In this document: positions 8,716 through 46,433 of the stretch, one piece after another
How positions within the stretch are numbered: position 1 is the stretch's first letter
How the letters are laid out: each line of letters begins with the position of its first letter
Virus record (IMG/VR): IMGVR_UViG_3300024952_000001
Location: 1-53,223 of that record
From: a virus
DNA length: 53,223 bases
Reading direction: 5' to 3' (one strand)
Notes under the pieces: model-generated
Database searches by the model: none
The model's input: the letters and a program-made list of their open reading frames with translations, nothing else
What the model was told of the DNA's origin: nothing
Translations under genes and position numbers: made by a program

Positions 8716-8793
8716 GCGCCTCTAGCTTAATAGGTAAAAGCAATCCGCTCATAACGGATAGATAGATAGGTTCAAATCCTACGAGGCGCACCA
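8716..8793 (+). tRNA. tRNA with anticodon CAU (Met or Ile2)
   Basis: The acceptor stem GCGCCTC/GAGGCGC is perfect, the D-arm is GCTT/AAGC, and the anticodon arm ATCCG-CTCATAA-CGGAT is perfect. The T-arm has loop TTCAAAT and one A-C mismatch, and CCA is encoded. The anticodon stem lacks the three G-C pairs of initiator tRNA, so it is an elongator Met or, after lysidine modification, an Ile tRNA for AUA codons. It could supplement the host pool. Confidence 0.92.
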
Positions 8794-8797
8794 TGAA

Positions 8798-8873
8798 TTA
8801 AGCCGACTTTATGATGTGGCGCATCACTAAAGCCAATGCGTAGGCTACCTCTAGTGGGGTTAAGTCGGTTTAA
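8798..8873 (+). ncRNA. Candidate structured RNA, 76-nt three-arm fold
   Basis: TTAAGCCGACTT (8798-8809) pairs with AAGTCGGTTTAA (8862-8873) over 12 bp with one G-U. Inside are hairpins TGATG/CATCA, AGCC/GGCT and ACCTC/GGGGT. The loops do not fit tRNA rules (a 4-base loop where a T-loop should be). It starts five bases after the tRNA and ends just before the next folded domain. It contains CAATGCGTAGGC, also found in the RNA at 44097. Confidence 0.55.
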
Positions 8874-8874
8874 T

Positions 8875-9039
8875 TGATGGTGTAGCAGCACTGTTTAGAA
8901 GTGCGAGAAGTGAGGGAACAAGCTCACACAATGAGGCCGAAAGGTTTTGAAGTTCTGCGGTTAGCCACAATTAGGCCAGATGGCTCGTTATCGAGAAGAG
9001 AAGCTAACCGAATGTAGGCGAAAGCTTACCGCACCATCA
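8875..9039 (+). ncRNA. Candidate structured RNA with two GAAA tetraloops
   Basis: TGATGGTG (8875-8882) pairs with CACCATCA (9032-9039). Within it are GCAC/GTGC (8888-8904), GTGAG/CTCAC (8910-8927), AGGCC-GAAA-GGTTT (8934-8947), CGGTTAGC/GCTAACCG (8958-8965/9003-9010) enclosing CTCG-TTAT-CGAG, and GTAGGC-GAAA-GCTTAC (9014-9029). Two GNRA loops on the plus strand indicate that this strand is the RNA. No open reading frame fits. The class is not recognised. Confidence 0.65.
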
Positions 9040-9061
9040 CCAATTTTATGAAAGGTAGATC

Positions 9062-9145: not shown

Positions 9146-9633
9146 AAAAACAAAAGAAACGCACCAAGGCATTTAACCCTAGCAAACATCGTGTAGTGAT
9201 TAATGCAGTGTATCAAACCGTAAGACTAGCCAAGCCAGTAAGCGATGAAGCAAAGGTTAAGCTAAACGAGCAAATACATGGCGCACTTGAAGCTATTACA
9301 AAGGGCGTAGGCACACCAGAGCACTTTGATGTTTTAGCGTCAACGGTTGATGTTGTTTTCATGATGGCAATGAACCTATTTAACGATGCCTATAAAGATG
9401 AAATAGCCAACGCACGCCAAGCAATGTTTAGGCTTAAAGATAGGTTTCACAAGTTCGGCTCTTTTGGCTTTGACGGTGTAGGTTACAACGCGATTAAAGA
9501 GCTTGTAGCAATTCACGATGAAATGATGAATCACGTAACTGGCGCAGAAGTTTTGCAGTTTATGAATGCCAGGGCAAATGCAATTAAAGGCGGTAATTAT
9601 TACAGAAGTGAAAGTGAAAGGTTGGCGGCATGA
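9142..9633 (+). CDS. Hypothetical helical protein (163 aa)
   Basis: The start is ATG 9142, coupled to the 27-aa gene; GTG 9136 is in frame but less likely. The N-terminus is basic (MKKQKKRTKAFNPSKHR) and the rest looks all-helical (VKLNEQIHGALEAITKGVG; NARQAMFRLKDRFHKF). The family is not recognised. It is often seen as an unknown early gene in related phages, as far as I recall. Confidence 0.8.
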   Translation: MKKQKKRTKAFNPSKHRVVINAVYQTVRLAKPVSDEAKVKLNEQIHGALEAITKGVGTPEHFDVLASTVDVVFMMAMNLFNDAYKDEIANARQAMFRLKDRFHKFGSFGFDGVGYNAIKELVAIHDEMMNHVTGAEVLQFMNARANAIKGGNYYRSESERLAA

Positions 9634-10055: not shown

Positions 10056-10536
10056 AACAATTATTGAAGATGCTAAAGCGGCAGGGTTCATAATTACAGA
10101 AAACGGCACGATATTTAGAAGCGCTAATACTAGCTGTAACAATCTATTAACTAAATTCGCCCAACTCCGCGAAGCTAGGCAATCCAGCCAGAGTGAGCCA
10201 GTAGCCGGATATGTTTCAAAGTTGCCGATTACCAATCCGCAATCAATCAGAGCGGATGACAATGACGTTTTCAAGATTCCTGTTTACGCCGCACCACAAC
10301 AGGCGATACCTAGCGTATGGCAACCGATTGAAACAGCGCCTAAAGATGGCACCGAGATAGATGTTTGGTGTTTTGATTCTGAAAACGAAGGCTATCGGGT
10401 TGCTAATGCTTGGTACTGCAACGCTTTAAATAAATGGCGTAGCTATGGCGATAATGAATTGATTTGGGCAAATATGCCTAGTTATTGGATGCCATTGCCA
10501 GCCTCACCTACCGCACCTATAGAAAGAGATAAATGA
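10048..10536 (+). CDS. DUF551-like phage protein (162 aa)
   Basis: The C-terminal half has WQPIETAPKDGTEIDVWC followed by NAWYCNALNKWRSYGDNELI and ANMPSYWMPLP, the hallmark of DUF551-type phage proteins with many tryptophans. The N-terminal half is a different, helical region. The function of the family is unknown. It sits in the chain of overlapping small genes of the early right operon. Confidence 0.82.
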   Translation: MDKTIIEDAKAAGFIITENGTIFRSANTSCNNLLTKFAQLREARQSSQSEPVAGYVSKLPITNPQSIRADDNDVFKIPVYAAPQQAIPSVWQPIETAPKDGTEIDVWCFDSENEGYRVANAWYCNALNKWRSYGDNELIWANMPSYWMPLPASPTAPIERDK

Positions 10537-11020: not shown

Positions 11021-11340
11021 TGCTTAAGAACCCTATTGATAAATCAGACATAGATTATCCAAGAGATATTTTTATGGAGTTGTTTTTAGGTAGTAGCCCT
11101 TACGCTTTTTATTTATTCCAGTGGGTTGACTATAAAAATGATGCAAAAAGATACAGGCTTAAGTTAAATCACGATGTTAAGTTGTTTGACGGAACAGTAA
11201 TCGAAAATTGCTACCCTAATGCTAATAGTTTTCACGGAAAAGTAAGAGTTAATGATGATGATGTTGAATTTATCCGCATTAGTAAACAGCAATTTGGCAC
11301 TGAATTTAAAGACCCACGCACACCAAAGAAAGGTGAATGA
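11020..11340 (+). CDS. Hypothetical protein (106 aa)
   Basis: The start is ATG 11020, overlapping the preceding stop (TGATG), with GGAG upstream; a GTG at 11008 is the other in-frame option. Aromatic N-terminal half (FYLFQWVDYKND), then a beta-rich segment (YRLKLNHDVKLFDGTVIENC). The end RISKQQFGTEFKDPRTPKKGE looks unstructured. No family is recognised. Confidence 0.7.
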   Translation: MLKNPIDKSDIDYPRDIFMELFLGSSPYAFYLFQWVDYKNDAKRYRLKLNHDVKLFDGTVIENCYPNANSFHGKVRVNDDDVEFIRISKQQFGTEFKDPRTPKKGE

Positions 11341-14451: not shown

Positions 14452-14541
14452 ATGGATAAAATATTATTGCTCGCTGGTTGGGTGGTTTTAGCTGGCTGTG
14501 CTTTATTTTCTATTGGGCGACTGCTTCTTTCTTTTTTCTAA
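14452..14541 (+). CDS. Possible small hydrophobic peptide (29 aa)
   Basis: An open frame MDKILLLAGWVVLAGCALFS continues with GRLLLSFF, one complete membrane helix. Its last 32 bases overlap the 3' end of the giant gene on the other strand. There is no clear ribosome-binding site, so it may be chance, but a fully hydrophobic reading with a lysine near the start is suggestive. Confidence 0.25.
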   Translation: MDKILLLAGWVVLAGCALFSIGRLLLSFF

Positions 14542-17500
14542 CCAGCTCGTTTAGTTTTTGCATTTGCTTGGTGATTCGCTCATCAACTGCTTTAACCTCT
14601 GATGCTGGTGCTCCTGCCTCTACCTTGCTTTCTTTAAGTTTGCGAAGGTTGCGTACAATCTTATCTGATTGCTTTGCGTGAGCGATTAACGCAGCCTCTG
14701 GGTTTTCTTTACGATATTCCTGAGTGCCAATATTATCAGCGCGGCGACCTTTAATCTCAGTTTCATGTTTACCTAGCATGCGCAAGTTATTGTAAAACTC
14801 TGAGCTTTGCGCAGCCTGCCCTTTAGCATCGCCATAGAAACGTCCTACAAGCGGTACTTTATAAGGCGGCAATTCTTCACCTGTCAACAAAGCTTCTGCT
14901 GTTGTGCCAGCTTTGCTTAACTCTCTACCCACGCCACCGAAAGCCTGCCCAACAAGGTAATCAATCGCATCGCCTGTTGGGCTAATATTTCCTGCTGTAT
15001 ATTCCGTGCCGCCGGTTAGTTTATTAATAAATCTTGCAATCTCAACATAGCCAGACCAAGTTTTATCTTTAGTCCGTGTAAAGCCTGCAGTTTGCGCGTT
15101 CTGGTTAATATCCTCGCGTGAAATCTGGTTATTCGTCCAATCCTTGTTTTGTGATAAATCATTAACCGGATCAAGTGCCGTTGGAGTAACAATACTCATA
15201 ATGCTACCGTTACCGCCAATCGGGTTAAACACCTCTGCAGACATACTTAATATATGTGTGAATCTGTCGTTAGTTTTCTCAAATCCAGACAAGGCCCATT
15301 CAGTTAAGATGCGGCCTAAATTTGGGATAGCGTTGTAGCCCAATGGCATTGGGATTGTTGCGTAACGTTTGTCGCCTAGCGGTATTATGATATTTCTATC
15401 ACGCACAAACTCTCGCGGCTCTTCATCACCAAAGCCAGCCAGCATTAATGCGACTGCCTGCATCGCACCAAACAGCAAGCCGCCTGCAACAATCTGTTGA
15501 CCACGTTTCCCTGTCAGGGTTTCAGCAATACGTGCGGTACCCTGAACGGATGCATTAAAGAAGGCATATAGCGCGCCTAAGTTCTGCCCCATGTTGCCCT
15601 TGCGGTTAAAGTTAACGCTAATATTTTTAGCTATACTTGCCGCCTGCTGCTTAGTCTGTCCGTTATCAACCGCCACTTTATAAACTGCCAGGCGCACAGA
15701 GTTCTCAAGCGTTTCGTTATAATCAGATAACCAATCAAAGATAGGTTTGATGGTCTTATCTTTAATCATTTCTTCTGGCACTGTTAGCAGTCCATTTGCA
15801 GAAACAACCTTACCTAATTTTGTTTTAGCCCACCAAGTCGGATCAATTGATTTTTGTATGGCTTCGCTACGTTCTGCGGCATTGGCAAACATATCACGGT
15901 AGCCTGTCTTGCCGCCTTCGCGCTGGAACTCTTCCCAGAGTGTGCGCATGGCTTGTGCTTGTTGCTTCTGGGATTGTGTGTAGCTAAAAAACTGTAAAGG
16001 TTTTTTAATTCCGTTGGCCGTTCTAGTGTCGGCATATATGCCGCGCAATGCAGGCGTAAGCAGCTTCAATACACCTTTCTGCTTACCTGCAATCGGCGTT
16101 GTACTTAAGTTCAGTAAAGCGCCTTGCACATCTCGAATGATATTTAATGTGCCAAATATAGGATTGTATTGCGTGTTTACACTGGCAAAGTATCTGGTGA
16201 TAGGCGCAACCCAATCGCGTAGCCAGCCCTCCATCTGATCTACGTCCAGATTTTTCATGCTAGCAGACAGCTGCATAGCACGCTCATTTGATTTATTAAA
16301 TACGACTGAGCGCTCTTCAACCTCACCACGCTTATTAAGAATGCGTGCAACAATTACATTAGGATGGTTTTTGTAAGTAGGGTCTGTGTACTCTTCAACA
16401 AGCCCACTCTCTTTACCAATCATTCTAATACGCGGTGGATTATCTACTTCCCAGAAATCTTCATTTGGATTTGTTTTTGCCAAACCAACTAGCGCAGTAG
16501 CAACGCGATTCTTTTCACCTCTAATAATGTACTGCTCACGTTGTTGAGCAATATTAGCGATAATATCCACGACCTGCTTGCTTGAACCCATCGCACGTTT
16601 GGCCGCGCCGCCTTTCACTGAAAATCCTTGACCTGTACCCATGCCAAAGCCTAAGTCCATTTCATCACGCTTTAATGGTACATAGCTTTTGTATGTATTA
16701 TTCCATGTGGAAATCGTACCGGCTGATTCAAGGCCGTAATCTACTAGCGTTTGGCGTGAGCCTGCATTTATTGCATAAACTCTAGCAGCTAATGCCTCAT
16801 AGTTTGATTTATCTTCTGGTGTTAGAGCTGATAGATAGTCTTTGGCATCCTGAGTTGTTATACCTGAGCCACCATCTTTCATATCTGGATTGACTTTTGC
16901 TATTTGAATATTGCGCTCTTCAGCGTGTCTATTCCATAGATATTGTTGCAAATCATCAATGCTGACTTTACGTGCGCGCATATCTTCAATTAGCGGATTA
17001 AGCTCATTGTCCAAGAAGTCTTTTACACGCTTAGCAGCTCTGCCGTGATACAACTCTTCTTGAAGGTAAGCATCCCAACGATCTGCTAGGTTAACGCCTG
17101 CAGCTTTAATGTTCTGCGTTACGCGCTTAAGGTCAATATTCTTGTCTTGAAGTGTGCGGCGTAGATTTTCAGACCAAGTGCTGTTTTCTAGCGCATCCCA
17201 TTTAGGTGTTAAGCTTGATTGTGATGGGTTAGACGTACTGCGTGAGTAGAATGTACCTTTTAAACTGTCTGCCAGTCCGCGATTCTGTAACTCACGCACA
17301 TACGAACCCAATACTTCACTCCTTCTTTCGCCGCTCTTTTCGCGTAGAAAGGTATTGAAGAGTGCTGCTCTTTTTGCCGTTCGCACTCCTGCGCGATAAG
17401 GATTGCTCTTTTTAGGTTCGTTATCCCCCAATGATCGTGTATTTCCATCATCGTTTCGTGATCCACTTCCGCTATCTGTTCTGGCGTAATAGTCGGAAAC

Positions 17501-20500
17501 AACTCGAGCAAAGTCCTTGTCGGTGAATTGCTCACCGTCAATGGTTGTGAAGCCTTGTGTTGTAGGGTTGAAGATAACATTTTTAAGTTCAGGTATATTG
17601 GTTATTGCACCGTGATAAACAGTATAAATCAGTTCTTTAATGTTGTGTGCATCGTCGCCTTTTTTCCAGTTAATTTTACGCACTGATTCGCCAAAGTCTT
17701 TTGTTTTTTCATCGAATGAATAATACAAATCTGGGTCAGTTTGCGCCACATGCGGCTCAATGTGTTTGGTGGTGCCGTACTTCAACGCGCTTGACAACAT
17801 ATTCTCTGCACGGCGGTAGAATGCCTTATCAGTTAATCCAAGCGGATCACCAATAAACACCTTGTCATTGTTATAGGCATAAGCCGCTGCAAGCGAGTAA
17901 ATTTCATTCCCTTGATTCTCGCCAGACTGTAATCTAGATACGTTTATCCAAACCTCATTGCCTTTTTCATAAATCACCGCAGATCTGTACTTATAATTTG
18001 GCATGAAAACTTCCCACGCTTTTTCGGCACCATCAAGCTTCGTTTGAGATTTACCAAATGGCTCAACACGGAATTGCGTGTTCATATCTTTGGCAATATC
18101 AGCAATATCTTTTGAATCGGAAGGTGCATTTTCAAATAAATCTTCGTTTCTAGCGGTGAACTCAAGCGCTGCGGTCAGGAATGTATCGCCGCTCTCTTTG
18201 GATGGCTCGCGGTTGTTGCGGCTGTAATACATGTTATTGCTTGAGATAAGGCTAACAACATCCTCGCCCTTAGCATAGCGTGATGCCATTGAAACAATAT
18301 CTCTCACATCAACATCCGTCATCTCAACATTGAATACCAGTTTTGCGAATGCCTTGATGCCGTCAATCAAGCGCTGCCATATTGACCTGACAACAGGTGA
18401 CATTTCAACATCTTGGTCGCCACGCTCAGCAATAAAGGCTAAGACTTCGCCAGCCATTGCGGTATCGTCAATATCTGGCTGTGATTCTTTAACATCATCC
18501 CAAATAGCGCGAATGTACTTATTGCCTGCTTTATTTAATGTTTTAACCTGCGTTAGCAATTTAGGGAATAAAGTTTTATCAACTTCATTCAGCATGCTCG
18601 CAACCGACATATGCCCGATTGCCTCATGCGCAAACACTTCTCTTAAGCGCTCCTCACTGTTAATGGCATTGGTATTAATCCATATTTCACCATTTGAATA
18701 CAGCCCTTCCACGTCATTGATTCTTACGCTCAATGCGGCCTGAATGTTTTGTTCGCTAGGCAGTTGAGTGACCAACTCTAAGCGCTCAATTAGTAGTTGT
18801 TCACTTCCGTTAATTTCCTCAATAAGATTTGAAGATATTGGCAATTTAGAATGATGGTCAACTAGCTTTACCTTGGGGATGCCTTTGTGTGACTTCTGCA
18901 GTTCATCGATAATCGACTGTGCTTTATCTTTGTCCATGCCTCGGTATGGGGTGGCATTGGCATTGCTACGGCTAAACATCACCACATTGCCGCTGTCGGT
19001 TTCTTTAGTCTGAATCTCAGAGAATAAGTTATCAAACGCCTCTGCTACTGGCGCAACCTCCTCATCCAACAAATAGGGGAATCTTGAACTATCACGGTTA
19101 AATGAATCCACGCGCACTACGTTTGCAAGGTAGTCATTGTCGTAACCATTCAACTGCATCTTATGGATAACGTAGTTTTCAAATGCTCTCGCGCCAAGCT
19201 CAATAATTCTTGACCAATAGCCATCTGTGCCCTCTTTTACACTGTCAATACTTCTGGCACGTTGCTTCATTGGTGAAGTGTTAAGTGCATCCACCAAGTC
19301 AGCAAATCTAACCTCAACCTCAGGCCTTACGCCTTGAGGATGTTTCGGATCGAGAATCCAATTCTCTTCGCTCCAATACTTGCTATTAGGGCTTTGTTTG
19401 CGATAACGCTCAAGCTCTGCTTTTGTGATTCCTTTATTGCCATAATTTTTATTTATGTATAAAGCTTCTGGCTTGTAAGTAATGTAGTTACCTTCACGGT
19501 AGGCTTGCTGGCTTTTGACCTCTGCCATTGACTTTTCACCACCACGCTTACGTGAAAAGTAATTATCCAAAGCATGGAACCACTCATGAGCTAAAGTACC
19601 AGCACCTTGCGTTTTTGTAAGATTGATAACTAAATTGCCTGGCTCAAAATGCGCGGCAGCACTACCCTTGCCTCGCGCACCGAATGAAAGCCCCAGTGTG
19701 CCTTCTAATGACATTGCTTTAGGCGGTACACCTACTATGTTAGCCAGGTCCATTAAAGCATCGTAGGCGGCGTTTAGCGCACCTTGTCGGTCATTATCTT
19801 TACCGCCCTGCTTTACCCATTCGCCAAATTGAATGCCCCTAAAGCCAAACGTAGTTGCGAACTCTTCTGAGCTTACATCTTTACCTTTGCGATAATCTTC
19901 ACCTGTGCGCGGTCTGTTTTCTTTACCTCGAACATCTGATTCTTTAACATTCAATCGGTCTTTTGTAGCATCCCATGCGGCAACTACTTCATCGTAGTTA
20001 TTGCGTAAAAATTCAAATGCCTCTTTTGAGCTATCAAAGGTCTTAAGCTTGGTGTAGTTTTTATCGCCTTTCTTGTTGATAAAGTAACCGCCTTTTGATG
20101 AGCCACGCACCTCAAACGCCATGCGCTTCTCTTGCTTTTCCTTGCCAAGTTTCTCGTTTACATTATCAATTACATCGGCAACACTTGAGGCTTCGTAGGT
20201 TGTAGTTACGCCATCAACATCAATACGCACCATCGGTTTAATTTGTTTTACACCATCAACGTAACTGTAAGCATTAGGGTACTCTTCAACCTTACCAATG
20301 CGCTTCCATGCGTCACGATCAATCGCCTCAAGCAATGCAACTTTAGATTTAAACTGGCCTAGTTGAGCATCTTTGAGCTTCTGCAACATTAGCTCTGGAT
20401 TTACTTCAAGCGCCTTGCTTACTATCCTGCCTATATCACGAAGTATTTTAACCTTGCCTACCCAAACTTTAAGCGCATAAGGCTTACGTGGTTTAGATGG

Positions 20501-23500
20501 GATTTCCTCTCTGGCTGTCCATGCAATTGCTGCGGCAGTTTTATTCTCGATTAAATTAACATCGGTAATGGGCCATATCTTACTAAGTGGCAATGAGGCT
20601 AGTTCATCATCTGAGTATTCCTTAGCCATTGCGCGCACCATATCTTTACGTGCACCTTCTAGCTTCTCGCCAAAGTCATCTACATTGCCTTTAGGTTTCT
20701 GTGTAGCTGGTTCGCCATAAGCATCAGCCACCTCATCAGCTGTGACTTTACCTTCGCGCACATCCTTGATAGTGTCGAGCTTCTCTTTGCCTCTAACGCC
20801 TGCGGCGGTGAGCGCTTCTGCGGCTTTGGCTACTTCGTTTTGAGGTTTTGTTTCAGATTTAGGCGCTGCAAACAAATCTTGCGCCCCTGCTGCGGCGGCC
20901 TGATCTGCTTCACTGTTTGAACCAGTTAGTGTGAATGTGTCTTGATTGTCATTTCCTGAATTGCGCTTAGCGTCTTTCGCACGCTCGGCATCAGCAACGG
21001 CTTGTTTGGCGGTAGTGTTGTCGCCTAGTAGGTCGGATTTATTATCTTTGCTGTCTGATAATAAAGATTTATCCTGCTCAGCATCCTTGATTGATGCGGT
21101 CTTATTGGCACTTTTGTTATCTACTTCCGCTTGCTGACTGGCGTTAGTTTCTGTTGCTGCTGTACCTCTTTCGCCGCTTCCAGTATCGCCACTCTCGCTG
21201 TCGGGCTTAAAGACCTGAACATCTGCAAACGCTTCTCTTTCGTTTGTTCCTGCAATTTGGAGTTCTGCATTTATTTCATCCTCATTAAAGTTTTTTGCAA
21301 AGTCATCTAAAACATCCTGAGCGGTTGCTTCAACCTCTTGATAGTATTGATTAGCTTTAACCTCTTCTTCTACCGCATACGGCAATACTGATTCACCGTT
21401 TCGGATTTTGTCCGCAAGGTAATCATACGCCTCTGTTGAATCAAAAGCATCATCATTAGCGCCGTTAGATTCAAGGCGCATGTTGTATGGTAGGTAATCG
21501 TCTAAATCACCTGATTCAATCAAGCCCTTGAGTGAACGTGTTGTATTTGATTTGAATACTTGGTTATAACCGCCAGGCGCAAAGCCTTTAACTTCACCGG
21601 TAACATCTCGTTTTTCAGTTAAGGCAATGCCGCCTAAGTCGCGCAGTGTTGCTAGTAGCGTTTTAGGTTTGGCTGGTTTACTTGTTTTTGGTTTTGATGC
21701 TTTGGCTGGTTGTTCAGAAGCTTCTACTGGTAAGGCTTCCGTAACCTTTCCGTTTCCAGATGTAATAGGCTTTGTTTTGAATAAGCGCTCAAACAACTCT
21801 GGGGCATCACGGCCCGCGTAACTTTCTGCACGCTCACGCATAGCATCAAGCACATCTGATTCTTTCCACCCTTGTTCTTTAGAGTAGGCAAGCGCGTTTC
21901 TGATTGTCACGAACTCTGGTGACCCAACAAAATCAGGCTTATCAATATCACGCATTTTTAGCGCAATTGATGAACCTAATGCTTGTGGTGATGTTTCATC
22001 AAAGTTATTAAATGCTTGTGAATATGCATCGATTTTATCTACATCAACACCTTTGAAAGCAGATGATTCGTTTTCGATTTCAGCAGTAGCGTTCTGTTCA
22101 AACCATTTATCAATGGATCTTTGGCTCCATGACTTTGCTTCATTTGCAAGCTTATCGCCTGCATACTTTCTTATAACGGCCAAATCCAAAGCTTTATTCT
22201 TTGCACGCCCCTCTTCTCTTGCTTGCTGTAGCTTATCGTAGCTCATCGTTGAGTAATCAACGTCATCAGACACCTTCACCTGTCCGCTTTTTTCGGACGG
22301 CTCAATTGTTGTAGCACCACTCTCAACGGTTGAACTTGGGAACTCTTTAACATCATTAAGCAACTGAGCAATAGGCGCATTCAAACGGATTACATCAACA
22401 TCGCCACCTTTGTTTAATTTAGATAGCCATTGATGATGGCCGTCTAATACATGGTTATCAGATGAAACCAAGATTGAACGGTCACCGCCTGCATACTTGC
22501 TTGCCTTCTTAACCTTGGCTTCTGAAAACTCTTGCTGCGTTGGTTTAAGTGATGATGCTGATACCGTTTCTTGAGTATGGTCCACGCCTCTAGCATTAAG
22601 AAAGTTAACCATCGCGCCACGGTGCTCTGCTTTCACTTGCGGCATTTCTGAGCGTGGAATGTTTAGCGTGCCAGATTCAGGACTAAATGCAGTCCACTCT
22701 TTGTTAATTTTCTCACCAACATGTACGCCTTTTTCTGTTTCATCGACACGTACCGCTGGTGTGTTTACGGTATCGACATTAGCAATGCCACGTAGCTTCA
22801 ACTCTTCATCAATCTGCGCCTTGACCTTATCATCAGTGGTCATGCTGCGCATCTTCGGCAAGAAGTCGTCTGTGGCTTGGGCGAATGGACGTGATACTGC
22901 ATCTTCGCCATTAAGTATAGCTATTGCATCGTTCCCTTGTATTCCATTTCCATTAAGTTGATCGCTTCCGCTGCCTTGTGCAGATGCTTCGGTAGAGTTA
23001 TCAATTGGTCCTGTATCGCTCCGTCCTGCAAGCTGATTAGGTAAATCTCCCAAGCTTCCTTGAACGTAATTACCTTCTTCTTGAGTGGGGTCTGCAACCA
23101 CATTGGTAACTCCATCATTCGGTAGGTCGCTGACATTTTCGGCCTCTAATAAATCTGCGGCATCAATTGCCTCGTTGTTTACAGGAATAGCAGGCGCAAC
23201 TACTGGCTGCGTTGCCAATGGATCAACTTGTTGTGCTATCTCTGCTGCGCGTGTGAGAGTGCCTAAATTGGCGCGGCGCTCAATCTCTGCATCAATCATT
23301 GGCACATCAGCAGGGGTTAAGGTTTGCGCTGTCTTGCGTAGATTTTGTAAGTTTTTATCTGGCAGCGTTTTGAACTTCTCTGCTTTTTGTTCTGATAGCT
23401 TTGCTTCTGCGGCATCATACTCGGCCTGCTTTTGTGCGGCCAGTGCATCATCGGCAAACTCACCGCCTTGTGAGATAGTTAGTAACTGTCCGTTACTTTC

Positions 23501-24589
23501 CTGTACAGGGGCGTTAGAGGCTGGTGCTAAATCTTCTTTGCCAGGCTCTTTATTCTTACCACTTAATAAAGCAGAAGCACCGCCACCCATTGCAGTGCCA
23601 GATAACAAGCCCATTGCCGCGGCTTCGTCCACGCCTTCTGTTAGTGGTTTATCAAGTGCAATGTTAGATAAAATTTGCTCTTGGATTGATTGCGGCATTT
23701 CCTCGAAAACACCCTCTGACATACCACCTAACACCAGTCGTTTAGCTAGTGACTTTTTAACCTCTTCGGTTACACCGCCAGCAATAACGGTATCAATATC
23801 GGCAATGCTTAGCTTCTGTGCAAGCTTGCCACCAAACACGCTAGTTAACGCAGTCCCCAAGCCTGATGCAACCGACAAGCCAGACTGTTTGCCAGTAAGC
23901 AATCCATCTTTAGTTTGCTGGCGCGTGCCTTCCGCTGCGGAACCTGCACTTATCACACCCTCACCAACTGCACCGGCAATCACTGGATTTGCGCCTAATG
24001 CAACTGCGCCACGGCCTACCACGCCGCCAGCGCCCATCAAAGGTGCTGATTGCGTGACAGCGGAAACGATACTTCTAGGGTTTTGAATGGCAGCAATAGA
24101 CTTATCTATAAATCCATCTGCATCAGACACAGCTTGATTAGCTGCTTTTTGTTCGTCAGAGAACTTTTCTGTTAAGAACTGCTTAGCCTCGTTTGGTTTA
24201 TAGCCAACCTCTTCTAGCGCCTTACCTACACGGCCACCAGTTGGAATGTCTGCTAACCCTACTACGGCTTCTGGAACCGAAATAGCGCCTTGCACTAAAT
24301 CGTTTGCACGATCAAGGCCGAATATACCTGTCTCAACTGTTTTTCTTAAAGCAGCTTTGCCTAAATCTTTAAGGCCAGTTAAGCCCTCTTTATAGACATT
24401 GCTTAACTTGTCGCTTGCGCTTGGCGTGCTAAAACTATCAAACTCAGAGCGTGCTTTTTCTAAATCTTCATCTGGAACATTGGGCTTTACAACAAATTCA
24501 AAGTATTCGTTTCGTGCCGCCTCTTTTTGCGATGCATTTAACTTCTGATACTCTGGGTTGTTGACAACATCATTCCATTTTTTTGCCAT
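14510..24589 (-). CDS. Giant polyvalent internal virion protein (3359 aa)
   Basis: The largest gene, one fifth of the genome, at the end of the late operon. The N-terminus (KKWNDVVNNPEYQKLNASQK) resembles internal virion proteins of podophages. Further on are Gly/Ala-rich membrane-active-looking stretches (residues 160-260), a ParB-like motif (HVLDGHHQWL, near 711), a zinc-peptidase motif in LAHEWFHALD (near 1665) and a second in FAHEAIGHM (near 1985), and a C-terminal region near 2795 (RYFASVNTQYNPIFGTLNII) that recalls large polyvalent protein-associated domain 38. Such proteins are thought to enter the host with the DNA and act against host systems. It is not N4 virion RNA polymerase as far as visible. 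One uninterrupted frame. Confidence 0.9.
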   Translation of the reverse strand: MAKKWNDVVNNPEYQKLNASQKEAARNEYFEFVVKPNVPDEDLEKARSEFDSFSTPSASDKLSNVYKEGLTGLKDLGKAALRKTVETGIFGLDRANDLVQGAISVPEAVVGLADIPTGGRVGKALEEVGYKPNEAKQFLTEKFSDEQKAANQAVSDADGFIDKSIAAIQNPRSIVSAVTQSAPLMGAGGVVGRGAVALGANPVIAGAVGEGVISAGSAAEGTRQQTKDGLLTGKQSGLSVASGLGTALTSVFGGKLAQKLSIADIDTVIAGGVTEEVKKSLAKRLVLGGMSEGVFEEMPQSIQEQILSNIALDKPLTEGVDEAAAMGLLSGTAMGGGASALLSGKNKEPGKEDLAPASNAPVQESNGQLLTISQGGEFADDALAAQKQAEYDAAEAKLSEQKAEKFKTLPDKNLQNLRKTAQTLTPADVPMIDAEIERRANLGTLTRAAEIAQQVDPLATQPVVAPAIPVNNEAIDAADLLEAENVSDLPNDGVTNVVADPTQEEGNYVQGSLGDLPNQLAGRSDTGPIDNSTEASAQGSGSDQLNGNGIQGNDAIAILNGEDAVSRPFAQATDDFLPKMRSMTTDDKVKAQIDEELKLRGIANVDTVNTPAVRVDETEKGVHVGEKINKEWTAFSPESGTLNIPRSEMPQVKAEHRGAMVNFLNARGVDHTQETVSASSLKPTQQEFSEAKVKKASKYAGGDRSILVSSDNHVLDGHHQWLSKLNKGGDVDVIRLNAPIAQLLNDVKEFPSSTVESGATTIEPSEKSGQVKVSDDVDYSTMSYDKLQQAREEGRAKNKALDLAVIRKYAGDKLANEAKSWSQRSIDKWFEQNATAEIENESSAFKGVDVDKIDAYSQAFNNFDETSPQALGSSIALKMRDIDKPDFVGSPEFVTIRNALAYSKEQGWKESDVLDAMRERAESYAGRDAPELFERLFKTKPITSGNGKVTEALPVEASEQPAKASKPKTSKPAKPKTLLATLRDLGGIALTEKRDVTGEVKGFAPGGYNQVFKSNTTRSLKGLIESGDLDDYLPYNMRLESNGANDDAFDSTEAYDYLADKIRNGESVLPYAVEEEVKANQYYQEVEATAQDVLDDFAKNFNEDEINAELQIAGTNEREAFADVQVFKPDSESGDTGSGERGTAATETNASQQAEVDNKSANKTASIKDAEQDKSLLSDSKDNKSDLLGDNTTAKQAVADAERAKDAKRNSGNDNQDTFTLTGSNSEADQAAAAGAQDLFAAPKSETKPQNEVAKAAEALTAAGVRGKEKLDTIKDVREGKVTADEVADAYGEPATQKPKGNVDDFGEKLEGARKDMVRAMAKEYSDDELASLPLSKIWPITDVNLIENKTAAAIAWTAREEIPSKPRKPYALKVWVGKVKILRDIGRIVSKALEVNPELMLQKLKDAQLGQFKSKVALLEAIDRDAWKRIGKVEEYPNAYSYVDGVKQIKPMVRIDVDGVTTTYEASSVADVIDNVNEKLGKEKQEKRMAFEVRGSSKGGYFINKKGDKNYTKLKTFDSSKEAFEFLRNNYDEVVAAWDATKDRLNVKESDVRGKENRPRTGEDYRKGKDVSSEEFATTFGFRGIQFGEWVKQGGKDNDRQGALNAAYDALMDLANIVGVPPKAMSLEGTLGLSFGARGKGSAAAHFEPGNLVINLTKTQGAGTLAHEWFHALDNYFSRKRGGEKSMAEVKSQQAYREGNYITYKPEALYINKNYGNKGITKAELERYRKQSPNSKYWSEENWILDPKHPQGVRPEVEVRFADLVDALNTSPMKQRARSIDSVKEGTDGYWSRIIELGARAFENYVIHKMQLNGYDNDYLANVVRVDSFNRDSSRFPYLLDEEVAPVAEAFDNLFSEIQTKETDSGNVVMFSRSNANATPYRGMDKDKAQSIIDELQKSHKGIPKVKLVDHHSKLPISSNLIEEINGSEQLLIERLELVTQLPSEQNIQAALSVRINDVEGLYSNGEIWINTNAINSEERLREVFAHEAIGHMSVASMLNEVDKTLFPKLLTQVKTLNKAGNKYIRAIWDDVKESQPDIDDTAMAGEVLAFIAERGDQDVEMSPVVRSIWQRLIDGIKAFAKLVFNVEMTDVDVRDIVSMASRYAKGEDVVSLISSNNMYYSRNNREPSKESGDTFLTAALEFTARNEDLFENAPSDSKDIADIAKDMNTQFRVEPFGKSQTKLDGAEKAWEVFMPNYKYRSAVIYEKGNEVWINVSRLQSGENQGNEIYSLAAAYAYNNDKVFIGDPLGLTDKAFYRRAENMLSSALKYGTTKHIEPHVAQTDPDLYYSFDEKTKDFGESVRKINWKKGDDAHNIKELIYTVYHGAITNIPELKNVIFNPTTQGFTTIDGEQFTDKDFARVVSDYYARTDSGSGSRNDDGNTRSLGDNEPKKSNPYRAGVRTAKRAALFNTFLREKSGERRSEVLGSYVRELQNRGLADSLKGTFYSRSTSNPSQSSLTPKWDALENSTWSENLRRTLQDKNIDLKRVTQNIKAAGVNLADRWDAYLQEELYHGRAAKRVKDFLDNELNPLIEDMRARKVSIDDLQQYLWNRHAEERNIQIAKVNPDMKDGGSGITTQDAKDYLSALTPEDKSNYEALAARVYAINAGSRQTLVDYGLESAGTISTWNNTYKSYVPLKRDEMDLGFGMGTGQGFSVKGGAAKRAMGSSKQVVDIIANIAQQREQYIIRGEKNRVATALVGLAKTNPNEDFWEVDNPPRIRMIGKESGLVEEYTDPTYKNHPNVIVARILNKRGEVEERSVVFNKSNERAMQLSASMKNLDVDQMEGWLRDWVAPITRYFASVNTQYNPIFGTLNIIRDVQGALLNLSTTPIAGKQKGVLKLLTPALRGIYADTRTANGIKKPLQFFSYTQSQKQQAQAMRTLWEEFQREGGKTGYRDMFANAAERSEAIQKSIDPTWWAKTKLGKVVSANGLLTVPEEMIKDKTIKPIFDWLSDYNETLENSVRLAVYKVAVDNGQTKQQAASIAKNISVNFNRKGNMGQNLGALYAFFNASVQGTARIAETLTGKRGQQIVAGGLLFGAMQAVALMLAGFGDEEPREFVRDRNIIIPLGDKRYATIPMPLGYNAIPNLGRILTEWALSGFEKTNDRFTHILSMSAEVFNPIGGNGSIMSIVTPTALDPVNDLSQNKDWTNNQISREDINQNAQTAGFTRTKDKTWSGYVEIARFINKLTGGTEYTAGNISPTGDAIDYLVGQAFGGVGRELSKAGTTAEALLTGEELPPYKVPLVGRFYGDAKGQAAQSSEFYNNLRMLGKHETEIKGRRADNIGTQEYRKENPEAALIAHAKQSDKIVRNLRKLKESKVEAGAPASEVKAVDERITKQMQKLNELVRKKKEAVAQ

Positions 24590-41317: not shown

Positions 41318-43601
41318 TTCTCACCCCGTCATTTTCGATAGTTTCAATACCTTGATTTACCCCTTGCATGGCACTTTGAGCTGCAGCGCCATTCATTGGG
41401 TCTTGGTCTAATGGTTGTACTGGCGCAACTTCTGCCGCCTGATTGACTGCTGCTTGCTCTTGATTGGTTGGTTTAAAGCCTGCGCCTTTCATGATTTCAT
41501 CAGCTACGGCTGCGGCATTAGGTACCGTTGCAACTACTTGACCTGCTTGTAATGCTGCATACATCGCTTTAATGCGCTCAGTTAATGCCTGTGCATCTAG
41601 CTTGTCAGTTTCAGCAATTAACTTAGATAATTGGTTGCGCATCGTTTCTATTGCCATTTCCTGCTGCATTGATTGCACTTTTGCGGCCTGAGCCTTTGCC
41701 TGTGCTGCTTCTGGCGTTTCTTCTGCTTCTGGATCTGATTGTCCATTGATTGAACGAATGCGATCCACTAACTGCTGCTTATTAGGCAGGTCTGCCATCT
41801 CAATCACTAAATCCAGCAAGTTCAACGCTACTTGTGGGTTCATCTGGGCTAGGCGACCAACAATATCAAACAAGCTTTCAAACATTGCTTGTCTTAAGCT
41901 GCTGCGGTAGTCCTGTTCGCTTACTACAAAATCGGTTTGGAATTGTGTAATGTCATTGATGATGTTGCCTTCTTCATCCGGCACATTGATTTCTTCATAC
42001 TTAGGCTGGCCTTTTTCACCAGTAATTCGCACTACCTTTTGCTCGGTATAAAACTGCTCTACGTTAGATAGTTCGATTTCGCCCACTAACTGCACTGAAT
42101 AGCGTAGGTTGTCAAAAATCTGTGTAGTTGATACGCTGCCCTGCTCTTGGCGTGCTGTAATCGCTACGCCACTATTAGCGTTCGTTTGGCGGCCTAAGTT
42201 CTCTGCTGTGATGCCTGAAACGTTACGAATATGCTGCACGTTTCTGTCCATCAGCTTCAATTGCTCCTCTGCAAGCTGAATATCACGGTTGAATGATAAC
42301 TCTGCACCTTTTTTCTTTACAATTAAGAAGTCCGGACGCGATGCCTCTTCTCGCAATTCATCCCAATCTTCTACCGCACCCTCTTCGGCAATAATGCCGT
42401 TGGCTGAAAGAATCCATAGCGCTTTTGATTGGCGCTTGTTTAAATCATCTTGTGGGTCACGTAAACCACGAATCACGCCATAAGGTGCTTTGTCGCGTCT
42501 GCGGCGATAGCACCACACCGGAACAAATGGGAAACGGTTATGCTCGTAGGGCGATTCACTGTCTGCAACTAATCCACCGTCACAGAAAATAGCGCAGCGC
42601 ACTTGCATTTCCAGCTTGTCATACAAGCTGAATTGATTGCGTAAAGCTTCTATGTGCTCAGGGTTCTCTTTATCAAACACCTGGTTATCAAAGTCACCGC
42701 CGCTAAACTTTCTGACTAACACAGGTACTTTGTACCAGCACTCAGTCATTTTCACGCGCTCTCTGGCATTTAAGCCTTTTGCGCTGCCGTCATACGGCAT
42801 GTATTTGCCAATGCTTGCGGTTGGTTGATAATCAAATCCTGCTTGAGTAACTCGCGCACCAAGGTAATAAGATTCTTCGTCCTCTTCATATCGCTGGTTT
42901 GTGCTAATGCTAGATTTGATAATGTCCGAACGCTCAGGAAAATAAGCCACAGCAATGTCGGCATCAAGCCAGCGGTTACGGAAAATGTAACGCCCATCGC
43001 TCAAATCCATTTCATTAGCGTTGCTGTCATAAAGAACATTGAGCCAATCTTCATTGCGCGTATAAATAAGCTCTTCTGTTGGGTCACCGCGAACGCCTGA
43101 TTCAATCCAGCCAACACCAGCCTTTACTGCTGATTCAAATGCAAAGCTACGGCTAAATGGCGTTTTATTAACGTCTGACAAATACTTAAGCAGCATTGTC
43201 TTAATTTCTGCATCTTTGCGACTGCCTTCGTCTTTACGTCTAGCCAATACTTTATGGTCAATGCGCGTGCGGCGCTCCGTGCCTATAATCCAATCAATGG
43301 TTGGCTTGACCTCATTGAACACCAGTGGTGCTTGTCCGCGCTCCATAAGCACCTGTGCATCTTCAACCGACCATTGCATTGAATCGTAATAATCTTCATC
43401 TAGCGCCATTTGATAGCGGTTAGCAGATTGCAAGCGCATTTCTTGGTCGTACCATTCACGAATCTGGCTTAAGCGCTTTTGGCTGGCCTGATTATCTAGT
43501 GGGTTTTCTGGCTGCTCATCCGGTTCAACTTCACTCGTTACATTGGCGAATGGATCATGCGAACTGCTGCCGCGCACATTGGTAAATCCGTTCTGGCTCA
43601 T
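41310..43601 (-). CDS. Portal protein, P22 gp1-like
   Basis: A 763-residue portal of the P22/podovirus type, forming the dodecameric ring where DNA enters and leaves. Recognisable parts: the N-terminal helical region (YYDSMQWSVEDAQVLMERGQ), APLVFNEVKPTIDWIIGTER (family signature near residue 90), a core with PYEHNRFPFVPVWCYRRRRD and GVIRGLRDPQDDLNKRQSKA, and a long C-terminal helical barrel region rich in Gln and Ala. Length fits the P22 family (about 725). It overlaps its neighbours on both sides. Confidence 0.93.
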   Translation of the reverse strand: MSQNGFTNVRGSSSHDPFANVTSEVEPDEQPENPLDNQASQKRLSQIREWYDQEMRLQSANRYQMALDEDYYDSMQWSVEDAQVLMERGQAPLVFNEVKPTIDWIIGTERRTRIDHKVLARRKDEGSRKDAEIKTMLLKYLSDVNKTPFSRSFAFESAVKAGVGWIESGVRGDPTEELIYTRNEDWLNVLYDSNANEMDLSDGRYIFRNRWLDADIAVAYFPERSDIIKSSISTNQRYEEDEESYYLGARVTQAGFDYQPTASIGKYMPYDGSAKGLNARERVKMTECWYKVPVLVRKFSGGDFDNQVFDKENPEHIEALRNQFSLYDKLEMQVRCAIFCDGGLVADSESPYEHNRFPFVPVWCYRRRRDKAPYGVIRGLRDPQDDLNKRQSKALWILSANGIIAEEGAVEDWDELREEASRPDFLIVKKKGAELSFNRDIQLAEEQLKLMDRNVQHIRNVSGITAENLGRQTNANSGVAITARQEQGSVSTTQIFDNLRYSVQLVGEIELSNVEQFYTEQKVVRITGEKGQPKYEEINVPDEEGNIINDITQFQTDFVVSEQDYRSSLRQAMFESLFDIVGRLAQMNPQVALNLLDLVIEMADLPNKQQLVDRIRSINGQSDPEAEETPEAAQAKAQAAKVQSMQQEMAIETMRNQLSKLIAETDKLDAQALTERIKAMYAALQAGQVVATVPNAAAVADEIMKGAGFKPTNQEQAAVNQAAEVAPVQPLDQDPMNGAAAQSAMQGVNQGIETIENDGVRNG

Positions 43602-44020
43602 GCCATCTGCCCCATATCAGGCATTGATACCTCTTCGTGCCTAATGGTTTTGCCATCAACCTTGACTAGCATTTCACCAATGGCCTGCTCAACCTTTTGT
43701 TCTTGCGTAGGCTCTGGCGGCATTTCAATCAGGTCTGGTAAGCCTTCAATGATTACGTCTGCGATTTGATGTGCGGAAAACTTAGAAGCCTCAAAGCCCA
43801 TTTGTTTAGCTGCGGCGAAGGATTGGCTAACCAAGTAATTGATGTTTGTGTACTTGAACGCTGCTGATAGGCACAATACAAACGCGCCATTAGTAAGCGT
43901 GCGCTTAACCTTTGGAAATAGAACCATTGCTGGCTCTTCATTTACCCATTGAAACGAGCAAACAATGTCGCCAATCGTTCTGATTTTATAAGCTTTTTCG
44001 CCACCTAGAGTTACAGGCAT
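43598..44020 (-). CDS. Hypothetical protein between terL and portal (140 aa)
   Basis: The start is ATG 44020 (MPVTLGGEKAYKIRTIGDIV), which has AGGA nine bases upstream; an upstream ATG at 44071 lies inside the repeated AAATGCAATTA motif and lacks a ribosome-binding site. The protein looks mixed alpha/beta with a cysteine pair and a helical C-terminal third (TQEQKVEQAIGEMLVKVDGK). It overlaps the portal start by four bases. Role unknown; possibly a terminase or portal accessory. Confidence 0.72.
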   Translation of the reverse strand: MPVTLGGEKAYKIRTIGDIVCSFQWVNEEPAMVLFPKVKRTLTNGAFVLCLSAAFKYTNINYLVSQSFAAAKQMGFEASKFSAHQIADVIIEGLPDLIEMPPEPTQEQKVEQAIGEMLVKVDGKTIRHEEVSMPDMGQMA

Positions 44021-44062
44021 TTGTGAGAATCCTATGAGAATGTCCACAAATTCTGCCGTACA

Positions 44063-44073
44063 TAATTGCATTT
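44063..44073 (-). promoter_or_regulatory. 11-bp repeated motif AAATGCAATTA, copy 1
   Basis: It ends 43 bases before the ATG of the 140-aa gene and lies just upstream of the rightward RNA that starts near 44097, so it sits between two divergent units. Same orientation as the other three copies. Confidence 0.55.
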
Positions 44074-44084
44074 GATTCTAGGTG

Positions 44085-44090
44085 TATACT
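44085..44090 (+). promoter_or_regulatory. Possible -10 box of the rightward RNA
   Basis: TATACT ends seven bases before 44097, so transcription would begin exactly at the first paired base of the RNA. No good -35 box is seen at 16-18 bp upstream (the nearest, TTGCAT, is 13 bp away), so a second factor may be needed. Confidence 0.4.
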
Positions 44091-44096
44091 TAAACC

Positions 44097-44225
44097 TCTA
44101 GTGCAATGCGTAGGCGATACGCAGCGTGATGACTTAAGCAAAGTGAGAGAGCCTGCCCGTTAGGTTGCATACGTTACCGGAGCCACTTAGGTAATGCCAG
44201 GTTCGCATCTGGCGCACTAGAACCA
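44097..44225 (+). ncRNA. tRNA-like structured RNA of about 129 nt
   Basis: TCTAGTGC (44097-44104) pairs with GCACTAGA (44214-44221), followed by A and CCA (44223-44225). Directly inside is GCCAG-GTTCGCAT-CTGGC (44196-44213), a T-arm-like hairpin with an extra base in the loop. At the 5' side is a D-arm-like 6-bp hairpin TGCGTA-GGCGA-TACGCA (44107-44123). TTACC/GGTAA (44174-44194) sits where a long variable arm would be. In place of an anticodon arm there are about 50 bases with a bulged stem CGTGATG/CATACG and two hairpins. It is transcribed against all neighbouring genes and ends in its own terminator. Class unknown. Confidence 0.68.
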
Positions 44226-44245
44226 AGAGGCTTCGGCCTCTTTTT
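44225..44245 (+). terminator. Rho-independent terminator of the rightward RNA
   Basis: AAGAGGC-TTCG-GCCTCTT followed by T3 more gives a 7-bp stem and a T-run on the plus strand only. It ends at the base before the terL stop codon, which lies on the other strand, so it does not serve terL. It may also shield the RNA gene from antisense transcription. Confidence 0.88.
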
Positions 44246-45865
44246 CTATGCCGTGCGCCAGTTGCCTGATTTTCTGGCCTTCGGTCTATTTTGGCCAGCA
44301 ACCTTAATCAGACCCAATGCTTTAGCCTGTGCAAACTGTCTAAAGCTGTCTGCGCCCTCGCTGTTAATGTCATGCTTTGGTAACTCGCTCCATCGCTCTT
44401 GTTTCTCATTCCACTGCTTCTTGTAGTTATCCAGCCGAGTAATGCCAAGTGCGCACGATTCTTTATCAATATAAACCTCAGGCATAGCCTCGCGCGTTTG
44501 CTGGATGCCATCTTGAATGTTTGTTATGCGCGGTACAATTTCTATATTTAGAAGTCCTTTATCCTCAAACATTTCTTTGACGCTTTTGTTCTCCTCGCTC
44601 AATCTCTTATGGTCGGCGTCATGCGGCATGAAATGCTTACCCCAAATATAGTTTTTACTTTGAAGAAGCTTAACGTAATGGCCTATCGTTTCTCCATGCC
44701 CTTCTTCGTAATCAATAAATCGATACTCCATGCCAACCATCTGCATAAACCATACAGCACAGCCGTCACCATTGCCAATATCCCAAAAGGTAAACACTGG
44801 CAAATCGAGCTTTGGTATTTTTAGTATGCGGCCTTGCTTACGCATGATAGACATTTGTTTGTGATAGTAATTGCCTTCAATAGATACTTCAAAGGCCTCT
44901 TTAGGCGTACTTGGATATTCCCGATTCATCACTTCCTTTTCCCACGAAAAATCATTTTCTAAAGTCACGACATACCATGCACGCTGTTCTAAATCTATTT
45001 TTGTATTCATGAGCACTTCAATCTCATTAAAATACTCATGCTGCTTGTCAGTTATGTTCACACCATCTGGATTTATTCTGTATTCATCTGCAGCGAACCA
45101 TGGGTAGAAGTGCAATTTAAAATCTTTTCTATTTGCCTCCCTGCCAGCCTCTTCACGCTTTATAGAAGCCTGCACCTTGTCGTGGTAATCACCCTCTTTA
45201 CCTTCTGCAGTACTTTCGATAATGATGATTCCAGTTGTTGGCACAGCAGGGATTGAGCCTGTTTTAACTTCTTTTGCTTTGTCCGGGCTTTTTGCACAAA
45301 TTTTTCCGTACTCTGAAACGTGAAGCCTGTGGATTGTGCCGCCACGTAAAGATGTGGCAACGCGAACGCTTGAGTTATTGTGTGCAAACACAACTTCTGA
45401 CTTGTTTTGTGAGGCTGTTGGGAACATTGCCTTCAAAGATTCAGGCATGTTGTTATAAGCAAACATTACCTTATCTCTGAATATGATCTCAGCATTTTGT
45501 CTATCTTGAGCGATGATGCCGCAACGTGCGTTTGGATTGTATAACGCATGGTCCAGCCAAAGAATTGCAACTAATGTCGTAAACCCAAGCTGGCGAGCTT
45601 TTAGTATTAAGTTTCTATTCCACATGCGCTTCATAAAGCGCAGTTGGTGCCTATTAGGGATAAAAGGCAGCACAGTATCTTCTGTTAGCTGCTCACCGTC
45701 CTCTGACACTTCACCTTTAATGATGATTTTATAAATTTTGCCGGACGTAATCCTCCACCATGGATCCTTTAGGTTTTTAAACAGCTCTTTAATTTCAGAC
45801 TTTTGTTCGTCAGTTAAAGAATCGTCTAGCAATTCATCGTTAATACTAACTGCAGCTTCAATCAT
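44246..45865 (-). CDS. terL: Terminase large subunit
   Basis: A 539-residue packaging motor and nuclease. The ATPase part has a Walker-A-like KARQLGFTT (residues 89-97) and Walker B IIIIE (213-217). The RNase H-like nuclease has FWDIGNGDG (360-368) and HDADH (415-419). The start is ATG 45865 overlapping terS by eight bases; ATG 45874 and TTG 45877 are alternatives. Together with terS and the portal it fills the capsid. The stop codon is immediately next to the terminator of the opposite-strand RNA. Confidence 0.93.
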   Translation of the reverse strand: MIEAAVSINDELLDDSLTDEQKSEIKELFKNLKDPWWRITSGKIYKIIIKGEVSEDGEQLTEDTVLPFIPNRHQLRFMKRMWNRNLILKARQLGFTTLVAILWLDHALYNPNARCGIIAQDRQNAEIIFRDKVMFAYNNMPESLKAMFPTASQNKSEVVFAHNNSSVRVATSLRGGTIHRLHVSEYGKICAKSPDKAKEVKTGSIPAVPTTGIIIIESTAEGKEGDYHDKVQASIKREEAGREANRKDFKLHFYPWFAADEYRINPDGVNITDKQHEYFNEIEVLMNTKIDLEQRAWYVVTLENDFSWEKEVMNREYPSTPKEAFEVSIEGNYYHKQMSIMRKQGRILKIPKLDLPVFTFWDIGNGDGCAVWFMQMVGMEYRFIDYEEGHGETIGHYVKLLQSKNYIWGKHFMPHDADHKRLSEENKSVKEMFEDKGLLNIEIVPRITNIQDGIQQTREAMPEVYIDKESCALGITRLDNYKKQWNEKQERWSELPKHDINSEGADSFRQFAQAKALGLIKVAGQNRPKARKSGNWRTA

Positions 45866-46433
45866 CTTGCACATCAATCATATTTGAACTTGCAATAGGC
45901 AACGATGAACCCATTAGCTGCTGAACAAGCATTAGCATTGGGTTTGTTTTCTGCTTATTGTCCTTCTCATAAGCTCCTAAATGCTTCATGAGCCGGTCAA
46001 GTGCCGCGCCTTTTTCAACAAGCTTCACTTTCTTAAGGTAACCTACAAACACACGGTCTTTCCCTGAGCCTTCGTACTGCTCAAGAACTTCAATGCTTGA
46101 GATTGCTGCGCCTGCTTCTGGCGGCCATTCACTAATAGGCTTTACAGCACCATCATCATCAAGAATCGTGCGAATATCAAAGAAAGCCACATTCATGTTC
46201 TCTAATAGAACGCGCTCAAGGGTTAGCTGCGTCTTTTCAATTACTGGTTTTTTTAACTCCTCTAGCCTCGCTGCAATCTCGCTTCGCTTCAAAAGCATAT
46301 AAGCATTGTTATTTACAGTTTCTGGCTTCATCCTTTCGGTATTAAATGCAGACTTATACGCATCACTAGCATTACCTGTTTCAATGTAGGCGAGGCAGAA
46401 GTTTTCTTGTTTAAGAGTTAGGCCTTTAGCCAT
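45858..46433 (-). CDS. terS: Terminase small subunit
   Basis: A 191-residue Terminase_2-type protein. The N-terminal DNA-binding part (GLTLKQENFCLAYIETGNAS, DAYKSAFN) is the family hallmark, followed by VNNNAYMLLKRSEIAARLEE. The C-terminal part has a beta/helix oligomerisation region (LEQYEGSGKDRVFVGYLKKV) and a tail likely to bind the large subunit. It selects the packaging site. It overlaps terL and the gene before it. Confidence 0.92.
   Translation of the reverse strand: MAKGLTLKQENFCLAYIETGNASDAYKSAFNTERMKPETVNNNAYMLLKRSEIAARLEELKKPVIEKTQLTLERVLLENMNVAFFDIRTILDDDGAVKPISEWPPEAGAAISSIEVLEQYEGSGKDRVFVGYLKKVKLVEKGAALDRLMKHLGAYEKDNKQKTNPMLMLVQQLMGSSLPIASSNMIDVQDD

Follow-up and report, generated by a model that had tools for sequence, protein, structure and literature searches.

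Does the rightward element beside the large terminase gene of this virus encode a discrete RNA and, if so, of what kind? The window analysed here is a 53,223-base IMG/VR virus record, in which the genes around the locus all run leftward and the RNA alone lies on the plus strand. A preliminary description had proposed a discrete, rightward, tRNA-like non-coding RNA, possibly with a role in packaging.

Layout of the locus

All structural elements named in that description were present: the closing stem, ACCA, the hairpins, an insert of about 50 nt, the TATACT box and the terminator. The neighbouring gene, said to encode 140 aa, exists as well, with a length of 157 aa from its first ATG. The features are as follows.

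43598-44071 (-), 157-aa gene, separated from terL by the RNA and followed by the portal gene
44085-44090 (+), TATACT, putative -10 box, ending 6 nt before P1
44097-44104 (+), 5' strand of P1, TCTAGTGC, acceptor-like, pairing with 44214-44221 to form the 8-bp closing stem
44107-44123 (+), D-arm-like hairpin of 6 bp with loop GGCGA, window lineage only, absent from other members
44123-44193 (+), family core with P2, P2.1, P2.2 and P3, matched by covariance model R1
44125-44173 (+), P2 arm, strands 44125-44133 and 44167-44173
44138-44140 and 44154-44156 (+), P2.1, inner helix of the P2 arm
44141-44153 (+), loop AAGTGAGAGAGCC in the P2 arm
44157-44164 (+), mini-hairpin CC-GTTA-GG in the P2 arm
44174-44194 (+), P3 hairpin TTACC/GGTAA with conserved loop GGAGCCACTTA, the "third arm" of the preliminary description
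44196-44213 (+), T-arm-like hairpin GCCAG-GTTCGCAT-CTGGC, window lineage only, absent from other members
44214-44225 (+), 3' strand of P1, GCACTAGA (44214-44221), and ACCA (44222-44225)
44225-44245 (+), intrinsic terminator with a 7-bp stem, a TTCG loop and a T-run, -9.4 kcal/mol
44246-45877 (-), terL, convergent neighbour of the RNA, with its stop at 44246
45858-46433, small terminase gene (TerS)

The window TerL is approximately 53% identical to TerL of Burkholderia phages JC1 and DC1, and the portal is of the P22 type. Elsewhere in the window, 14510-24589 (-) encodes a 3359-aa protein with the large polyvalent-protein domains LPD1, LPD5, LPD37 and LPD38.

The promoter is weak, with a good -10 box and no good -35 element, and was not listed by a generic promoter scan. 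The terminator was found on the plus strand only. The fold of the RNA was more stable than that of dinucleotide shuffles (z = -2.7).

Family members and covariation

A 19-mer from the supposed anticodon region matched an unrelated phage contig, L021, in which TATACT likewise stands just 5' of P1 (9 of 12 consensus matches). Pattern scans found the family in about 20 other IMG/VR contigs, three further scans of IMG/VR having enlarged the set. Thirteen distinct cores align over 93 nt without gaps. In the family core, the arms P2 and P3 meet the closing helix P1 at a junction; the inner helix P2.1 was proposed by RNAalifold. The place of the anticodon arm in the window RNA, about 50 nt (44124-44173), holds the P2 arm of this core.

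Both-sided base changes were found across the family at four pairs in P2 and three pairs in P2.1. In P3, the window has U-A and A-U where the other members have G-C and C-G, and the equivalent of P1 covaries in the other members. In the gapless alignment, which was not fitted to a model although the structure was partly drawn from the same sequences, the final structure including an unproven loop helix gave nine pairs with both-sided changes, against 3.1 in shuffles (0 of 500 reached it) and two at most in slid controls. Adding the window and leaving out the loop helix gave 11 such pairs and 27 cells, with 99% paired (0 of 500 shuffles), in an alignment biased towards the model to which it was fitted. 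Where only one side of a pair changes in P1 or in the outer pair of P3, the result is G-U and never A-C on the plus strand of the window; because of this, the RNA is assigned to that strand.

Covariance model R1, built without the window sequence, found the window core at 44123-44193 (42 bits, E = 7.5e-9) as its sole match in the window. The match spans model positions 13-82, P1 being replaced. A lack of compensatory changes in relatives had been named beforehand as what would speak against the RNA; such changes were found in the core, and the proposal of a discrete rightward non-coding RNA is supported by this structure. These comparisons show that, at the level of sequence, 44097-44225 encodes a member of a new family of phage RNAs.

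A conserved core in variable frames

Conserved throughout are P1 as the closing helix, P2, P2.1, a CC-GNNA-GG mini-hairpin, P3 and both internal loops, AAGTGAGAGAGCC and GGAGCCRCTTA, which are the most conserved parts. The window departs from this plan by having another P1 helix and an additional hairpin at each of two places, between P1 and P2 and between P3 and P1'; these hairpins are the D-like and T-like arms. The other members are without tRNA-like arms, and most have a different, covarying flanking helix whose strands vary in concert (ACACGCATGGGGATTG/CAGTCTCCAGCCGTGT, ATCAAGCGTGTGGATTG/CAGTCCACACCCTTGAT, AAACGCATGCTGATTG/CAGTCAGCAGCCGTTT). Because the window has extra arms and other members a second covarying helix, the predicted RNA is a small core set in lineage-specific frames.

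The flanking helix has the form xxxxxCATGxxGATTG ... CAGTCxxCAGCxxxxx and stands 5', and often also 3', of the core in L023, L025, L026, L029, L030, L058, L059, L061 and L068, and by eye also in L022, in RNAs of about 300 nt or more.

The loops of the two arms are complementary (AAGUG/CRCUU), with 89% of cells paired and one-sided changes only, over a length fairly likely to arise by chance. Our hypothesis is that these loops may pair, in one molecule or from one molecule to another, in the manner of pRNA loops.

Comparison with known RNA families

None of the 4227 families of Rfam 15 gave a credible match to the window RNA, even at E <= 10, and none matched the core of the other members tested; known Rfam families were thus rejected for both. 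In L025, a sub-threshold match to Betaproteobacteria_toxic_sRNA falls on the terminator that follows the RNA, outside the core. By blastn, the family RNA had only chance matches among 50,697 phage records, and the window RNA only chance matches among 72,556 plasmid records. A strict exact pattern had no match in the GTDB species genomes, a search blind to members in which the AAGTGAGAG segment differs. The 14 matches of a loose pattern in GTDB (L031-L044) were all due to chance, as were L027 and L028. The sole R1 match in 369 Gammaproteobacteria, L071, was weak (28.6 bits), with the entire central part of the core missing, and is probably a chance match. By model R1, the RNA is absent from the named phages with a related TerL. 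No description of the family was found in the open-access literature, subscription papers and most preprints being outside this scope. The family appears to be new in having no relative that could be detected among known RNAs, although an earlier description may exist. If a function of a known RNA kind is shown later, the family would be a variant of that kind.

The core might bind the tRNA elbow, as RNase P and T-boxes do, via the pentamers UGAAA and UGAGA/UAAGA, which presumably resemble T-loops; this likeness serves as a lead only. All 13 aligned members conserve both pentamers, tRNA genes lie 0.4-0.7 kb from the RNA in L068, and L029 has a weak tRNA-like and glycine-riboswitch-like element. 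The first pentamer is, however, absent from the window core, and no RNase P or T-box match was obtained in Rfam, so that we regard elbow binding as very unlikely. The interdigitated T-loop motif of RNase P and T-boxes has been reviewed (PMC4919913).

The tRNA-like end

The description of the whole RNA as tRNA-like held for its end and failed for its middle: an acceptor stem abutting a T-arm, with a discriminator base and CCA, is present in the window RNA, but the conserved family part is its least tRNA-like stretch and no tRNA model matches it. We scanned 0.9 Mb for an acceptor stem with an abutting T-arm containing TTCR and followed by NCCA. The matches were the window RNA, its copy in L016, a genuine tRNA-Pro (two overlapping loci) and one match in a coding region. 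Mononucleotide shuffling gives an expected 0.67 matches per pass, so the tRNA-like half of the window RNA is unlikely to be chance.

An RNA of the tRNA or tmRNA type, with its anticodon arm replaced and used in translation, would account for the 8-bp acceptor, the 6-bp D-like stem with GG in its loop, the T-arm-like hairpin abutting the acceptor, and ACCA, in a pattern rarer than chance; its acceptor stem, abutting hairpin and CCA also liken the window member to tRNA and to the tRNA-like domain of tmRNA. Yet ARAGORN and the Rfam tRNA model (RF00005) had no match at the window RNA even at E <= 10, and tmRNA was called nowhere in the window (ARAGORN and Rfam, E <= 10); the only tRNA that tRNA models found in the window is a tRNA-Met at 8716. 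The window RNA has no anticodon arm with a 7-nt loop, position 58 of its T-loop is C, off consensus, and all other members have the family core without the arms. We accordingly reject a tRNA or tmRNA identity, and consider a role in translation extremely improbable.

Only the window and two near relatives have the acceptor, the D and T arms and CCA. Because their sequence is identical in all carriers, they lie beyond a covariation test. Most simply, the tRNA-like end would give a defined, CCA-protected 3' end; in this lineage, the only one to have it, the acceptor/T-arm/CCA end is probably for 3'-end maturation and stability. The window member is also a natural fusion, with a functional RNA core joined to a tRNA-like end.

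Presence and absence in near relatives

L017 is identical to the window over 12,099 bases and represents the same virus. In L016, a diverged relative, the RNA is identical at 129 of 129 positions, against 376 of 474 (79%) in the 157-aa gene and 341 of 455 (75%) in the end of terL; the terminator carries a mutation there. In L009 and L010, relatives at 82% protein identity, the corresponding interval is short, lacks the RNA and carries hairpins resembling leftward terminators. Because of its identity in L016 and its absence from L009 and L010, the putative RNA gene is a unit that a genome either has or lacks; strong constraint on it and a recent exchange fit the data equally.

Presence or absence at one site between close relatives, together with its own promoter and terminator, would also suit a small cargo gene (moron) encoding a decoy RNA for anti-defence or host targeting. 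The steady proximity to terminase seen across lineages would not be expected of a free cargo gene, and we consider a moron quite unlikely.

Position relative to terminase genes

The RNA lies beside or upstream of terminase genes in all lineages whose contig shows a terminase; the 8.3-kb contig of L023 has none. Of 13 distinct lineages with a terminase on the contig, eight have TerS or TerL no more than about 1.5 kb from the RNA, counts and distances having been taken by hand with an approximate grouping into lineages. In the others, the terminase lies 2.5-10.7 kb downstream of the RNA.

Within about 1.5 kb (TerS or TerL): window, L021, L022/L024, L025, L057, the L060/L066 group, L061, L029
At 2.5-4.2 kb: L059, L026, L058/L064
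At 9-11 kb: L030, L062, L068

In L030, L062 and L068, the RNA heads early-type genes about 10 kb from the terminase. The TerLs of the carriers form two blastp groups and a third of L059 and L026 only, unlinked at 1e-5, and no protein family common to all carriers was found. Because the lineages are not fully independent and phage non-coding space clusters at such boundaries, the proximity may be read as suggestive only.

Outside the window, the RNA is always in the sense direction and upstream of terminase, whereas the window RNA is antisense and self-terminated. An intrinsic terminator follows the RNA in L025, L057, L029 and L058.

Proposed role

We tentatively favour, at somewhat below even confidence, a free-standing phage RNA that would act in trans, most likely in the late or packaging phase. 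The window RNA would be made from its own promoter and stop at its own terminator, and the free RNA of about 129-149 nt would act in trans, its conserved loops possibly binding terminase, portal or a late regulator, as the position of the gene suggests. The layout in the window stands alone, with a terminator on the plus strand only, all neighbours leftward and no sense gene downstream; because of this last feature, the arrangement would need a trans-acting RNA. Also in favour are the intrinsic terminators that follow the RNA in four other carriers, its full identity in L016, its absence from the slot in L009 and L010, and the proximity to terminase. In the leader-like copies elsewhere, the same RNA may be set free from the late transcript or be joined to it by readthrough, or may have a role in cis. 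Against the trans-acting reading, the promoter is weak, the sense position upstream of terminase in other members looks like that of a leader, early-type genes follow the RNA in L030, L062 and L068, no protein family was found in all carriers, and the complementary arm loops have one-sided changes only.

The main rival takes the RNA as a cis-acting leader of the terminase or late operon, either a put-like antiterminator that lets RNA polymerase into the late genes or a ligand- or protein-sensing leader, with the window copy as a displaced relic or decoy. The RNA lies directly 5' of the first gene, 15-70 nt before its start codon, in L021, L022, L059, L060, L066 and L061, just after a divergent region in three of these (L021, L059 and L060), and in L025 and L057 the intrinsic terminator stands between the RNA and TerS. 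But neither in the window nor in L023 is the copy directly followed by a sense gene, and the window copy is terminated at once, where readthrough would be antisense to terL. This copy is also perfectly conserved against a background of 75-79%, and no common expression platform was seen. In our judgement, a cis-acting leader is somewhat less likely than a trans-acting RNA.

The put antiterminator of phage HK022 is likewise a structured phage RNA, and many members of the family resemble it in heading a long operon. Such siting, 5' of and in sense with an operon, is found in most other members but not in the window, where the RNA is antisense to its neighbours and has its own terminator; the comparison with put is one of position.

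The phi29 pRNA (PMC5340915) is a small trans-acting RNA with a three-way-junction fold and with loops in two arms that are able to pair, and it is encoded with packaging functions. The family is like it in its fold, in its place beside packaging genes and, as proposed here, in acting in trans, and its two complementary arm loops might pair. Its packaging setting is different: the carriers have large terminases in place of the phi29 ATPase, and portals of the P22 type or of other kinds. The Rfam phage pRNA model had no match to the window RNA at E <= 10. The packaging role suggested earlier gains circumstantial support from the position beside terminase in several unrelated packaging modules, and none from kinship with phi29-type pRNA.

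To our knowledge, an RNA in DNA packaging has so far been known only for phi29-type phages. In the boldest form of the trans-acting reading, which we consider unlikely, the family would be an RNA component of large-terminase packaging or late-phase control common to unrelated phages, a second, independent packaging RNA beside phi29 pRNA, with the window copy fused to a tRNA-like acceptor end. A covarying RNA family with no Rfam counterpart, beside the packaging genes of different TerL lineages, would point to an unrecognised late-phase RNA step in tailed phages.

GOLLD and ROOL are ornate phage RNAs (PMC12286853). The family is like them in being phage-encoded, with a conserved core and a variable, ornate periphery, and in sometimes lying near tRNA genes, but unlike them in that its core is only about 90 nt and it lies near terminase rather than in tRNA arrays. 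The GOLLD, ROOL and OLE models of Rfam had no match in the window or in any member tested.

Other candidate structured RNAs

Several further elements were noted in the carriers. In L029, just past the family RNA and the terminator behind it, an element at 11095-11182 (-) that is followed by CCACCA scored below threshold both as a glycine riboswitch (24.9 bits) and as a tRNA (18 bits). A sub-threshold match to int-alpA RNA (26 of 35.8 bits) was found in L026 at 10191-10265 (-), and L030 carries at 9177-9227 (-) a candidate Hammerhead type I ribozyme just under the gathering score (30.5 of 34 bits).

In the window itself, the long intergenic stretch at 8796-9045 (+), directly after the tRNA-Met (8716-8793), has a second RNA fold, intricate and multi-branched (z = -4.3, none of the shuffles being as stable). 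It had no meaningful Rfam match beyond tRNA and no match in the phage database. The 12-mer CAATGCGTAGGC and the 10-mer ACCTCTAGTG are adjacent both at 8834-8857 and at 44094-44115, in swapped order; their arrangement in the two putative structured RNAs is like a circular permutation.
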